NCBI GenBank assembly: GCA_029289235.1
Contig: JARFTZ010000042.1
Coordinates: forward strand, 1 to 34,369
Source: Gammaproteobacteria bacterium
GTDB taxonomy: Bacteria; Pseudomonadota; Gammaproteobacteria; Burkholderiales; Rhodocyclaceae
Direction: 5' to 3'
Length of the DNA stretch: 34,369 bases
The notes below the pieces were generated by a model. It was not told the origin of the DNA. It worked only from the letters and a program-made list of their open reading frames with translations, and searched no databases. Positions 30,093 to 34,369 of this stretch are shown here, piece by piece (position 1 is the first letter of the stretch; every line of letters begins with the position of its first letter). Both the position numbers and the translations under genes were made by a program.

Positions 30093-31433
30093 CTACATGA
30101 CGCCGTCGATGTCTTCCTTGTCGATCCCGAGTCTGCGCATCTTCTCCCACAGCGTCTTGCGGCTGATGCCGAGCGTGTCGGCGCAGGCCTGTATCTGCCA
30201 CTGGCTCGTGTCGAGCGCCCGCACAATGAATTCGCGCTCGCGCTCGTTCAGATAGTCGCGCAGGTTGCCGCCGGTGCTCTGGGGTTCCGTCGCTGCGACG
30301 GGCTGGTCGAACAGGTGGTCGACGCCTATGCTGCGGCTGTCGCTGAGCAGGCAGGCGCGTTCGAGCGTGTTGCGCAGTTCGCGGATGTTGCCCGGCCACG
30401 GGTAGGCCATCAGCGCCTGCTCGGCGGCGGCGGTGAGGACCGGAGGCTTTTGCCCGTGGCCGGTGAATTCAGCCAGGAACAGGCGGCTGAGCCAGAGGAT
30501 GTCTTCGCGGCGTTCGCGCAGGGGCGGCACGCGCAACTGGACGACGTTGATGCGGTAGTACAGGTCTTCGCGAAATTCGCCGCTGCCGACCATTTCCTTG
30601 AGATCGCGGTGGGTGGCGCAGAGCAGGCGGATGTTGACGGCCGTCGGCGTCTCGCTGCCGATGCGCGTGATGCTGCGTTCCTGCAAGGCGCGCAGCAGTT
30701 TGGTCTGCATGCCCAGCGACATGTCGCCGATCTCGTCGAGGAACAGCGTGCCGCCGTCGGCCTGCTCGAAGAGGCCGCGGCGGCTGCGCAGGGCGCCCGT
30801 AAACGCGCCTTTTTCGTAGCCGAACAGTTCGGCTTCGAGCAGGGTCTCGGTCAGCGCGCCGCAGTTGATGGCCACGAAGGGCCGCTCCGGTCCGCCGAGG
30901 TCGTGGATCGTGCGGGCGATGCGCTCCTTGCCGACGCCGGATTCGCCGGTAATCAGGACGGTGGTGGTGCTGCCGGCGAGGCGCGGCAGCAGGGCGATGA
31001 TGTGGCGCATGGCCGGCGACGACCCGAGCGCATCCACCGACTCCGGCGCCGCCGGGCCGGCGATCGACTGGATGCGGTCCATCAGCGCGTCGAGGTCGAA
31101 GGGCTTGGTGATGTAGTCCTGCGCGCCGAGCTTGAGCAACTGGACGGCGGTGTCGATGTTGCCCTGGCCGGTGATGAACAGGAACGGGGGCAGCGCGACG
31201 TGTTCGCCGGCGAGCCGGGCGAACAGTTCGTCGCCGCCGAGGTCGGGCAGGCGGATGTCGCTGATCACCAGGAAGTATTCGCGCGTCAGCAGCGCGGCTT
31301 CGGCGGCCGCGGCGGTACGGTGCCAGTCGCACAGATAACCGTCGAGCACGAAGCGGTCGGCGAGCGATTCGCCCATGATCTCGTCGTCTTCAATCAGGCA
31401 GATACGGTTCGTTCGATTCGTTGGATTCGTCAC
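30093..31433 (-). CDS. Sigma-54-dependent response regulator (AioR/ArxR-like context)
   Basis: This 446-residue NtrC-type regulator has a receiver domain over residues about 10-122, with the phosphate-accepting Asp59 in VISDIRLPD and Lys110. An AAA+ domain over about 138-370 carries Walker A GESGVGKE (163-170) and the sigma-54 contact motif GAFTGA (209-214). A Fis-type helix-turn-helix ends it (ACADTLGISRKTLWEKMRRL). The start is a GTG at 31433 that overlaps the 3' end of the kinase gene by 44 bases. Its likely targets are the two GTTAC-N6-GTAAC sites and the sigma-54 promoter before the cytochrome gene, 2.4 kb upstream. AioR/ArxR identity is inferred from gene order. Confidence 0.93.
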   Translation of the reverse strand: MTNPTNRTNRICLIEDDEIMGESLADRFVLDGYLCDWHRTAAAAEAALLTREYFLVISDIRLPDLGGDELFARLAGEHVALPPFLFITGQGNIDTAVQLLKLGAQDYITKPFDLDALMDRIQSIAGPAAPESVDALGSSPAMRHIIALLPRLAGSTTTVLITGESGVGKERIARTIHDLGGPERPFVAINCGALTETLLEAELFGYEKGAFTGALRSRRGLFEQADGGTLFLDEIGDMSLGMQTKLLRALQERSITRIGSETPTAVNIRLLCATHRDLKEMVGSGEFREDLYYRINVVQLRVPPLRERREDILWLSRLFLAEFTGHGQKPPVLTAAAEQALMAYPWPGNIRELRNTLERACLLSDSRSIGVDHLFDQPVAATEPQSTGGNLRDYLNEREREFIVRALDTSQWQIQACADTLGISRKTLWEKMRRLGIDKEDIDGVM

Positions 31434-32868
31434 GGCGGGGGTCCAGGGGCAGGGTTACGATGAAGCGCGTCAGGGCGCTGGTGGTTTCGGCGCGAATGGC
31501 ACCGCCGAGTTGCGTCGCGATCTGGTAGCAGATCCACAGGCCGAGTCCGTTGCCGCGCTGCGAGAAAGGGGTGAACGGTTCGAAGAGGTGTTCCTTGTGT
31601 TCGGCCGAGAGCACCTGGCCGTCGTTCTCCACGACGAGCGTCAGATTCTCCTGGGTGCCTTCCGTCCATACCGCGACGTGGCCGTTGCGGCCTGCGGCCT
31701 GGACAGCGTTGAGCACCAGATTGATCAACAGTTGCCGCACTGGCGTCGACGGCACCGGCAGCGGGTCGGGAATGCGCGTTTCCCAGGCGATCTCGACGCC
31801 TTGCTTGTGGGCGGTGGGGGTGACCAGCAGCATGACATCGTCGATGTCGTGGAGTGCCAGTCGGCGGCTGCTGACCTTGGCTTCGACCAGCAGTGCGGCG
31901 ACCGTGTCGCGGATCTGCGAGAGGCCGCGTTCCAGCAGGCTGATCGTCTTCTGGTTCAGCGGGTCGGGCGTGCCGTGCCGCTTCAGGGTGCTGATGGCGT
32001 TGAGCATGCCGCCCAGCGGGTTGTTGATCTCGTGCGCGATGCTCGCCGTCAGGCGGCCGACTGCGGCCATGCGCTCCTGCTTGACGACCTCCTGTTCCAG
32101 CTGGAGCTTTTCCTGCATGGCGTCGAGCATGCGGCCGTAGGCGAGGTAGAGCGTTCCGACTTCGTCGTGATACGGATAGAGGTGCGGGTCGAGCGGCTCC
32201 GGTTCGCCGGCGTTGATGCGGCTCAGTCGGTCGGTGACGAGTTCGAGCGGGGCGACCATGCGCCGTCCCCAGTACCAGTTGATCGGCAACAGCACTGCGA
32301 GGATCAGCAGGGTGACTGCGGCGGCGTTGAGGATGACCCGGTCGAAACGGTGCCAGAGCTGGTTCTTGTTGTGCGCCACGATCAGGGTGCCGATCCGGAC
32401 ATTGTCGGCGCTGATCGGGATGGCGATGAACAGATGCGCGGCGACGTCGCGTTCGAGGATGCGGGACGGATGCGCCGGATCGGCGGCGATCTCGGCGTCG
32501 ATCGCCCGGAAGTCGTCGCCGAGATCGGCGAGTTCGCTCGTCACCGGAAAATCCTCGGGGTGCGAGGAGGCGAAGACGCGGCGTCCGGCGTCAAGGACGA
32601 TCAACGCCTCGGCCAGCGCCGAACTGCTGTTTTCCTTGAAGGGCAGGGCGATCGTCTCGTAGGCGCGCCACACGTCGTCGTGCAGCAGGGCGGTGAATAG
32701 CGAGCGGGCCATCGTCTGGCCGAGATCTTCCGAGCTTTTCAGCATGTCCTGGCGCAGGTTGTTCCAGGACTGGAGCAGGAACGACGCCGACAGCGCCAGC
32801 GCCGTGGTCAGGATCAGCGCGCCGCCTAGCAGCGGCAGTTTGTAGCGCAGGCTGAGGTTGAAGAGCAT
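31390..32868 (-). CDS. Sensor histidine kinase of the three-gene sensory operon
   Basis: This 492-residue membrane kinase has a first membrane span near residues 12-32 and a periplasmic region near 33-175. A second span lies near 180-200 and is followed by a HAMP-like linker. The phospho-acceptor is His279 in SIAHEINNP, and the ATPase domain has the N, G1 and G2 boxes (NLVLNAVQAAGRNG, VVENDGQ, RGNGLGLWICY). The ATG at 32868 lies 7 bases after the binding-protein stop and is preferred over one at 32895 inside that gene. The adjoining PhnD-like protein probably presents a ligand to the periplasmic region, as AioX does for AioS. Confidence 0.92.
   Translation of the reverse strand: MLFNLSLRYKLPLLGGALILTTALALSASFLLQSWNNLRQDMLKSSEDLGQTMARSLFTALLHDDVWRAYETIALPFKENSSSALAEALIVLDAGRRVFASSHPEDFPVTSELADLGDDFRAIDAEIAADPAHPSRILERDVAAHLFIAIPISADNVRIGTLIVAHNKNQLWHRFDRVILNAAAVTLLILAVLLPINWYWGRRMVAPLELVTDRLSRINAGEPEPLDPHLYPYHDEVGTLYLAYGRMLDAMQEKLQLEQEVVKQERMAAVGRLTASIAHEINNPLGGMLNAISTLKRHGTPDPLNQKTISLLERGLSQIRDTVAALLVEAKVSSRRLALHDIDDVMLLVTPTAHKQGVEIAWETRIPDPLPVPSTPVRQLLINLVLNAVQAAGRNGHVAVWTEGTQENLTLVVENDGQVLSAEHKEHLFEPFTPFSQRGNGLGLWICYQIATQLGGAIRAETTSALTRFIVTLPLDPRRDESNESNEPYLPD
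31406..31432 (-). repeat. Three 9-bp repeats inside the kinase/regulator overlap
   Basis: On the minus strand three near-identical nonamers (TGACGAATC, CAACGAATC, GAACGAACC) are read in two frames. They give DESNESNEP at the kinase C-terminus and TNPTNRTNR at the regulator N-terminus. Slippage in this tract would keep both frames because the unit is a multiple of three. Confidence 0.75.
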
Positions 32869-32875
32869 TCGCTGG

Positions 32876-33991: not shown

Positions 33992-34007
33992 TGGCCCGAA
34001 GCTTGCA
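33992..34007 (+). promoter_or_regulatory. Sigma-54 (-24/-12) promoter of the cytochrome gene
   Basis: TGGCCCGAAGCTTGCA has GG and GC exactly 12 bases apart and differs from the TGGCAC-N5-TTGCA consensus at one position. Transcription would begin near 34018, 28 bases before the cytochrome ATG. Confidence 0.85.
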
Positions 34008-34045
34008 ATGGAATCAGCGACAAAAAGGAAATCGGGGGCGGGACG

Positions 34046-34369
34046 ATGCGAAAACCATTTGCGCTGTTGGGAGCCATTGGCGCCGTCGTGCTGCTTTCGT
34101 TCCCCGCCCTGGTTTCTGCCCAAGGCGCCGACCCGACCCCCGAGCAACTGGAAAAGGCCCGGCAAGCCAACGCCGAATGTTTCGCCTGCCATTCGCCTGA
34201 GGGTTTCCAGGCTCCGCCGAAGGAAGGACTCGACCTCGGCAAGCTGCGCGGCCTGCTGCAGCACCCCGACGTCTTCGGCCAGTCCGACCACCGCCGCCTC
34301 GCCTGCACCAAATGCCACAACGAAGGCTACGACGAACACCCGCACGCCGACGACGCGCGCGACATGACC
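34046..34369 (+). CDS. Multihaem cytochrome c (3' end outside window)
   Basis: This is the first 108 codons of an exported cytochrome c, open at the right edge of the window. A signal peptide (MRKPFALLGAIGAVVLLSFPALVSA) is followed by two haem-binding motifs, CFACH near residue 49 and CTKCH near 90, with extra histidines (HEP-like DEHPHAD) as possible axial ligands. More haem sites probably follow outside the window. It should carry electrons in the periplasm, as part of a respiratory chain for an inorganic acceptor or donor. A GGGGGCGGGA stretch precedes the ATG. It sits under a sigma-54 promoter and two activator sites and diverges from the sensory operon. The enzyme it serves is not visible. 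Confidence 0.88.
   Translation, partial: MRKPFALLGAIGAVVLLSFPALVSAQGADPTPEQLEKARQANAECFACHSPEGFQAPPKEGLDLGKLRGLLQHPDVFGQSDHRRLACTKCHNEGYDEHPHADDARDMT

Follow-up and report, generated by a model that had tools for sequence, protein, structure and literature searches.

A candidate arrXSR sensor divergent from a probable arsenate reductase operon with a 7-haem cytochrome-cytochrome b561 module in a Rhodocyclaceae genome

The window analyzed here is the entire 34,369-bp contig JARFTZ010000042.1 (C42) of assembly GCA_029289235.1, a Rhodocyclaceae genome (3.8 Mb in 63 contigs, 95% complete); the subject of this work is the regulatory gene trio near the end of this contig, together with the cytochrome operon that diverges from it. 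The trio occupies positions 30093-33733 on the minus strand and comprises, as an earlier note on this DNA had read it, a binding protein, a histidine kinase and a sigma-54 regulator. The sigma-54-dependent response regulator (ArrR/AioR/ArxR-like; 30093..31433, minus strand; Pfam Response_reg, Sigma54_activat and HTH_8) combines a receiver domain, an AAA+ domain with the GAFTGA motif and a Fis-type helix-turn-helix. The sensor histidine kinase gene (ArrS/AioS-like; 31390..32895, minus strand; Pfam HisKA and HATPase_c) overlaps both of its neighbors, so that the three genes probably form one operon. The periplasmic AioX-type oxyanion-binding protein (32876..33733, minus strand; Pfam Phosphonate-bd), hereinafter the sensor, completes the set. 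The regulator is 82% and the kinase 77-78% identical to their counterparts in the arr loci of two genomes of the same genus, G018 and G027, where the trio, 77-82% identical overall, diverges from a cytochrome c gene and an arrA-type gene. In line with the same note, no ABC transporter gene was recognized beside the trio, where part of the neighboring open reading frames was scanned, namely those for an ArsP permease and a CopZ-N-like protein.

Among solved structures in the PDB, the closest relatives of the sensor are AioX (E=8e-57) and ArrX (E=1e-34), with a phosphonate-binding protein next (E=7.5e-11) and phosphite-binding proteins also behind. The earlier note counted one cysteine in the mature protein; C88 is the sole cysteine over the full length, and it aligns with Cys106 of AioX. 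Six of the seven residues of the AioX arsenite pocket (Y88, Cys106, Y131, S161, S163, H192 and D210; PMC5908839) are identical in the sensor, which reads Y, C, Y, S, T, H, D; the substitution of Thr for S163 recurs in 76 of the 82 sensors scored, that is, 78 from the survey described below, that of the window and three extra ones. The N-terminal loop, in an alignment judged by eye, is of AioX length and keeps Phe57, a feature that ArrX is described as lacking (PMC5908839), so that arsenite appears a likelier ligand than arsenate. Phylogenetically (85-row tree), the sensor of the window clusters with those of three arrA loci, including G018 and G027 (support 100/96), two of the three being identical; the long branches of the AioX and ArrX references leave their exact position unsure. 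The host genome encodes a single sensor of this type, the two other matches being only 26-28% identical. The three-component architecture that the earlier note had likened to AioX/ArxX systems is thus borne out by the closest solved relatives, the retained pocket with Cys106 and the linked kinase and sigma-54 regulator.

The sensor and cytochrome genes are separated by a divergent gap of 312 bp that contains two exact operator-like inverted repeats of the form GTTAC-N6-GTAAC, GTTACCACGATGTAAC (33788..33803) and GTTACGAAAGCGTAAC (33821..33836), spaced by 33 bp. A sigma-54 -24/-12-like site, TGGCCCGAAGCTTGCA (33992..34007, plus strand, one mismatch), ends some 39 bp short of the cytochrome start codon, with 176 and 209 bp between its -12 element and the two operator centers. 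Such sites, at two or fewer mismatches, are no rarer than chance in the window as a whole (8 against 6.8 expected), and this site alone is not significant.

The recurrence of the repeat was assessed in a survey of sensor loci, the best 80 of at least 239 confirmed ones, which are mutually related (L059 and L060 are identical), so that the counts given here and below are not independent. Two loci were excluded throughout (L132, with no gene called, and L121, with no sensor called), L067, with the sensor at a contig edge, was additionally left out of the operator scan, and L109, with a truncated sensor call, was left out of the tree; target genes were labeled by means of a custom gene caller and BLAST against reference proteins. 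Upstream of the sensor gene, the repeat is found at one or fewer mismatches in 73 of the 78 regions scanned (the window and 77 of the 80 loci surveyed), against 0.78 expected from single-base shuffles, and in all 71 divergent sensor-target gaps; 58 of the 70 survey gaps have an exact copy, as does the window, and 62 of the 70 have two or three copies. The five regions without it comprise the two same-strand loci L114 and L116, where an exact copy sits between the regulator gene and arrA instead, and three at contig edges. In a control set of 216 other intergenic regions of the survey loci, exact repeats occur in 7, all beside targets of the sensor family, and repeats with one or fewer mismatches in 13; 15 exact copies were found in the 1.17 Mb of survey loci outside the sensor-upstream kilobase. 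The 3.8-Mb host genome contains three, two of which are the window pair, and the third, inside a called open reading frame (C3:7427), is taken as chance, with 1.8 expected. Given this recurrence and the controls, control of the cytochrome operon by the regulator, putatively through the paired repeats, is well supported, in agreement with the earlier note. With so little background, GTTAC-N6-GTAAC flags targets of the sensor family, so that regulons of uncultured arsenic-respiring bacteria may become readable from sequence.

The first gene of the divergent operon is represented in the window by its 5' part (34046..34369, plus strand), with an ATG at 34046 and two CXXCH motifs ahead of the contig end. 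In its full-length relatives, the motif occurs seven times and the C-terminus is hydrophobic, which bears out the multihaem cytochrome c named in the earlier note and indicates by homology a membrane-anchored 7-haem protein; their genes are followed by a cytochrome b561 gene and then by genes for cytochrome c or EB_dh-family proteins. The contig breaks at 34369 within a repeat, the genome having the cytochrome gene in a second copy: the last 271 bp of the window recur at one end of contig C12 with 96% identity, the last 141 bp being identical, and contigs C24 and C62 begin with an identical 141 bp, a pattern suggestive of a two-copy repeat that a 141-mer assembly could not bridge. Two contigs run into the repeat, C42 from the sensor side and C12 with genes for a kinase and a LuxR-type regulator (NarX/NarL-type as judged from sequence only), an EB_dh-family protein and then the cytochrome. 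Two others run out of it, C24 and C62, both starting within a cytochrome b561 gene that is followed by a monohaem cytochrome c gene. On C24, there follow genes for an 852-aa molybdenum enzyme (arrA), a 258-aa 4Fe-4S protein (arrB) and a TorD/NarJ-type chaperone (arrD-like), and on C62, a gene that by its sequence is HypF-like.

In G018 and G027, the genes downstream of the sensor-associated arrA are those of C24, except for a four-gene insert on the minus strand, and a separate cassette of 7-haem cytochrome, b561 and cytochrome c genes runs into a HypF-like gene, which also stands 3' of the cassette in G013. Because the HypF-like neighbor on C62 thus matches the separate cassette loci, C24 is left as the likely partner of the window, and because the genome holds a single arrA-type gene and a single such sensor, both at contig ends, we infer with considerable strength that C42-C24 together with C12-C62 is the parsimonious pairing. 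The operon then very probably comprises, in this order, genes for the 7-haem cytochrome, cytochrome b561 and a monohaem cytochrome c, followed by arrA, arrB and arrD. The earlier note had held that the divergent target lacks an arsenic catalytic subunit, a misreading that stems from the end of the contig at 34369: synteny places the only arrA-type gene of the genome downstream of the window cytochrome. The respiratory enzyme that the note suggested looking for beyond this position would accordingly be that of the Arr-type cluster on C24, across a join drawn from synteny.

The molybdenum enzyme encoded on C24 aligns over 805 aa with the Shewanella ArrA of known structure, at 48.8% identity. The (R/K)GRY motif of ArrA is present as RGRY, and all seven active-site residues compared (R165, Y166, H189, S190, C193, K198 and Y210, Shewanella numbering) are kept. 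The gene is 89% identical to that of a relative, and the other matches in the host genome reach at most 38% over short parts. The enzyme is thus, on comparison of the proteins, a divergent member of the ArrA family or a sister group to it. Against a plasmid collection, the enzyme search returned one record only (34% over 60%) and the cytochrome search no match.

We consider it probable that the locus is an arsenic-oxyanion three-component sensor (arrXSR) that switches on a divergent sigma-54 operon for the 7-haem cytochrome, b561, cytochrome c and ArrABD, with the cytochrome cassette in the place of ArrC or CymA. Periplasmic arsenic, arsenite more readily than arsenate, would be bound by the binding protein through C88, and the bound sensor would signal via the kinase to the response regulator, which would bind the paired repeats and activate the operon. 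Electrons from quinol would then pass through b561, the 7-haem cytochrome, cytochrome c and ArrB to ArrA, which would reduce arsenate, the cytochrome/b561 pair substituting for the absent ArrC/CymA.

Several observations weigh against this reading. No sequence spans the gap between the window and C24, the join being drawn from synteny, and the closest relatives, G018, G027 and G005, have arrA without 7-haem and b561 genes ahead of it; in the cultured Propionivibrio dicarboxylicus, which has the sensor, arrA is the first of the target genes. The NCBIfam ArrA model gives four relatives 1011-1035 bits against a cut-off of 1600, the first of these relatives being 89% identical to the C24 copy. PMC5908839 states as a rule that the sensor binds the substrate of its enzyme, which an AioX-like arsenite pocket next to an arsenate reductase would not follow. 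Genes of the NapC/NirT family (two matches) and one NrfD gene (contig C3) elsewhere in the genome could serve ArrAB. In three genomes without a detected arrA, the sensor ahead of the cassette has Cys106 replaced by Ser, so that another ligand is possible there. Finally, in the genus, the 7-haem gene is present in 11 of 28 genomes; a search of these 11, several of them incomplete, for arrA detected it in 4 and not in the other 7, so that the cassette is not specific to Arr.

Some of these observations would fit an unlikely, though serious, contender, namely that a NapC/NirT-type quinol dehydrogenase elsewhere serves ArrAB and the 7-haem/b561 cassette is a passenger, copied in by recombination between similar cytochrome c genes. 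The two NapC/NirT-family matches, the arr operons of G018 and G027 without the cassette and the seven genus genomes with the cassette gene alone would all be expected, and so would the near identity of the two cassette copies in the host (89% over the 106-aa N-terminus of the cytochrome, 93% for cytochrome c), which points to a recent event. The window cytochrome is at most 70% identical to the full-length cytochromes of other genomes and 76% identical over 46 aa to a fragment from G018; because the host copies are much more alike than those of other genomes, copying or conversion of the cassette into the arr operon indeed seems to have been recent.

Against the passenger reading stands the recurrence of the association elsewhere. 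In L119 and L133, whose sensors belong to one clade distinct from that of the window, the sensor faces 7-haem, b561, EB_dh, arrA, arrB and arrD genes on one contig, and L100, with other cytochromes, has 9-haem, b561, arrA, arrB and arrD genes. Seven more loci (L065, L066, L084, L094, L098, L102 and L103) encode an 8/9-haem protein with a membrane part 3' of arrABD and cytochrome c in the same operon; in the L024 reference protein, the only one scanned, this part is b561-like at 29.3 bits, just below the Pfam cut-off of 30.1. An automated tally of the 8/9-haem and front-cassette arr loci gives six fused and four split, since a contig end cuts L084. Among the 32 arrA-type survey genes, multihaem coupling thus takes the form of a 7-haem front in two, a 9-haem front in one and a downstream 8/9-haem gene in seven; the remaining 22 operons show no such gene, the sequence ending first in many, albeit not in some, such as L061, L076 and L092. 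A rough helix count brought up no arrC-like gene in the survey arr operons; its single flag, in L114, falls upstream of the sensor genes. In the genus, four genomes searched for both genes yielded arrA, namely the host and three relatives with orthologous sensors, and all four also hold the 7-haem gene somewhere.

An Arx-type arsenite oxidase downstream, with the multihaem chain drawing its electrons from arsenite, is improbable. The divergent layout of the trio is that of arx clusters (PMC6549141) and the N-terminal loop of the sensor is AioX-like, as such an enzyme would lead one to expect. However, the motif XGRGWG, present in all ArxA sequences of PMC6549141 as opposed to ArrA, is replaced by RGRY in the C24 enzyme, and five aligned survey enzymes that have this motif group apart from it. 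The genomes of that paper all have arxABC in that order; on C24, arrA, arrB and the arrD-like gene are followed by unrelated genes, with no arxC alongside. For the C24 enzyme itself, an Aio or Arx identity was rejected on the comparison with Shewanella ArrA and the RGRY motif.

Still less credible is the pairing in which the window cytochrome runs into C62 (b561, cytochrome c and the HypF-like gene), with arrA behind the C12 copy, so that the sensor would control a cassette without an arsenic enzyme, as the earlier note proposed. The repeat, with its identical 141-bp ends, permits both joins equally, and in G003, G006 and G016 (75, 99 and 70% complete), where no arrA was found, the 7-haem gene stands directly behind such a sensor. 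These three sensors, however, form one clade (100/100) and all have Ser at position 106, whereas that of the window keeps Cys106, as do the sensors beside all 32 arrA-type survey genes. The HypF-like neighbor on C62 and the genes downstream of arrA on C24, which match the separate cassette loci and the arr loci beside the orthologous sensors, respectively, likewise argue against this pairing. That the sensor is an ordinary phosphonate, phosphite or phosphate-binding protein with an accidental link to arsenic, for which its Pfam match could be cited, is hardly worth entertaining: it falls below the cut-offs of the PhnD family model (92.5 against 261.1 bits) and TIGR01098 (102.9 against 112.05 bits), AioX and ArrX are its best solved relatives, Cys106 is conserved, and the two PhnD-like proteins of the host genome lie far outside the sensor clade in the tree. 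A transporter identity was rejected on these grounds, and the grouping with phosphonate transporters that the earlier note had named as the outcome contrary to its proposal was not observed.

Beyond the arsenic-sensing locus favored here, a broader proposal is that the 7-haem cytochrome and b561 are a new type of quinol dehydrogenase module for two-subunit Arr and a traveling cassette, recruited by one sensor-operator system to several respiratory enzymes, the systems with Ser-type sensors in Propionivibrio soli and two relatives answering another oxyanion; we put this forward tentatively, with somewhat less than even confidence. At the column of AioX Cys106, 74 of the 82 sensors have Cys and seven Ser, L109 being unscored. 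Apart from the three described above, the Ser sensors stand before MtrA/MtrB-type genes (L135 and L027) or before a gene for a 7-haem protein (about 609 aa; L120 and L126). Of the three loci described above, the two scanned, L108 and L118, retain the operator repeat, which suggests that these sensors changed ligand with the DNA code unchanged, and Cys-to-Ser sensors may mark systems for other ligands. Cys sensors also occur near a 7-haem gene with no arrA in view, in L095, where the contig ends after b561, and in L062, where another molybdenum enzyme gene comes first. The EB_dh protein of P. soli was sought in the host genome and none was found.

Other occurrences of the cassette came to light in the survey. 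Further 7-haem genes or cassettes in L003 (1-4317), L043 and L050 are accompanied by a kinase and a LuxR-type regulator, NarX/NarL-type by their look; no molybdenum enzyme was recognized nearby, and L003 and L043 have an EB_dh-family or EB_dh-like protein. In L044 (7869-12108; genome G027), the cassette lies 3' of genes for a protein with 10 CXXCH motifs and a 704-aa protein, by their look MtrA/MtrB-like, an arrangement that suggests use of the cassette in extracellular electron transfer.

The sensors vary at a second pocket position as well. Ser replaces AioX Asp210 in eleven of them (L101, L111, L112, L115, L117, L122, L123, L124, L130, L134 and L137), which possibly have another ligand. Nine of these precede genes for a TtrA-like molybdenum enzyme (84-100% alike to that of L023), a ferredoxin and usually a protein of about 390 aa and a 3-haem protein; the other two, of the same sensor clade, have different target genes. 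In 13 loci (L062, L071, L077, L078, L079, L091, L093, L096, L097, L099, L104, L128 and L129), a PhsA/ArrA-related enzyme (two were scanned) and a small dihaem protein are encoded near the same type of sensor; some of these sensors nest within arrA-associated clades, so that enzymes have probably been swapped behind one sensor type. In the pair L059 and L060, a contig labeled Selenomonadales encodes the same sensor as a Propionivibrio metagenome-assembled genome, probably reflecting a mislabeled bin.

On the other side of the trio, the window encodes an ArsP-family permease (28311..29360, plus strand; Pfam ArsP_1, E=1e-74) that adjoins the regulatory genes, a small protein, thioredoxin-like by its look (29373..29603, plus strand), and a CopZ-N-like iron-sulfur metallochaperone (29616..30047, plus strand; NCBIfam NF047645, 155 bits against a cut-off of 100). 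Relatives of the permease, 82-93% identical, are found near the sensor in L058-L061, and the same ArsP adjacency is seen in the arr loci of relatives. The further arsenic genes ascribed to the window in the earlier note are backed by Pfam matches to SBF, LMWPc, a methyltransferase-GNAT protein and two ArsP_1 proteins, of which we take the first three to be Acr3, ArsC and ArsM. The presumably ArsM-like methyltransferase is fused to a GNAT acetyltransferase domain (21647-22936, plus strand), and the second ArsP permease (23806-24858) is encoded close to it.

Among the systems described so far, the closest in layout are aioXSR-aioBA and arxXSR-arxB2ABCD (PMC5908839, PMC6683785, PMC6549141), in which the same trio diverges from a molybdenum enzyme operon. 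The Cys106-type pocket is shared, and the operator of the window belongs, by eye, to the inverted-repeat class reported for AioR, whose predicted site (PMC5335332) resembles GTTAC-N6-GTAAC. The present system differs in that its enzyme is of the Arr type, its operon opens with a 7-haem cytochrome and b561, and the operator of its family is symmetric and mostly present in two or three copies. An Arr enzyme under an XSR system is likewise known in arrXSR-arrAB of Chrysiogenes arsenatis (PMC5908839); there, however, no arrAB promoter was detected by the authors, whereas an RpoN-like site is present here, and the host of the window is a Propionivibrio-type betaproteobacterium with an AioX-like rather than ArrX-like sensor. 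Putative arrA genes have been reported in five metagenome-assembled genomes of the same broad group, Rhodocyclaceae (PMC6730927), in an account whose relevant passages describe no regulator, operator or electron donor module. In the open-licence literature, we found no Arr operon with its own multihaem/b561 module. The undescribed respiratory system envisaged in the earlier note is therefore recast: synteny supplies an enzyme of the Arr type, and the whole locus is likely a wiring variant of Arr under XSR control, for which we found no precedent in print.

The known quinol links of Arr are ArrC and CymA, although PMC2500031 leaves other solutions open (PMC2500031, PMC8076601). As in the Shewanella ArrAB with CymA and in ArrCAB (PMC2500031, PMC8076601), the two-subunit ArrAB considered here would need an outside quinol dehydrogenase; unlike in those systems, the candidate is b561 with a 7-haem cytochrome, encoded in the same probable operon, rather than a CymA of the NapC/NirT type or an ArrC of the NrfD type. 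This layout may answer how Arr enzymes draw electrons without the usual membrane subunit, and since the candidate electron donor module very probably belongs to the same arsenic-controlled operon, its role can be tested by single-gene deletions.

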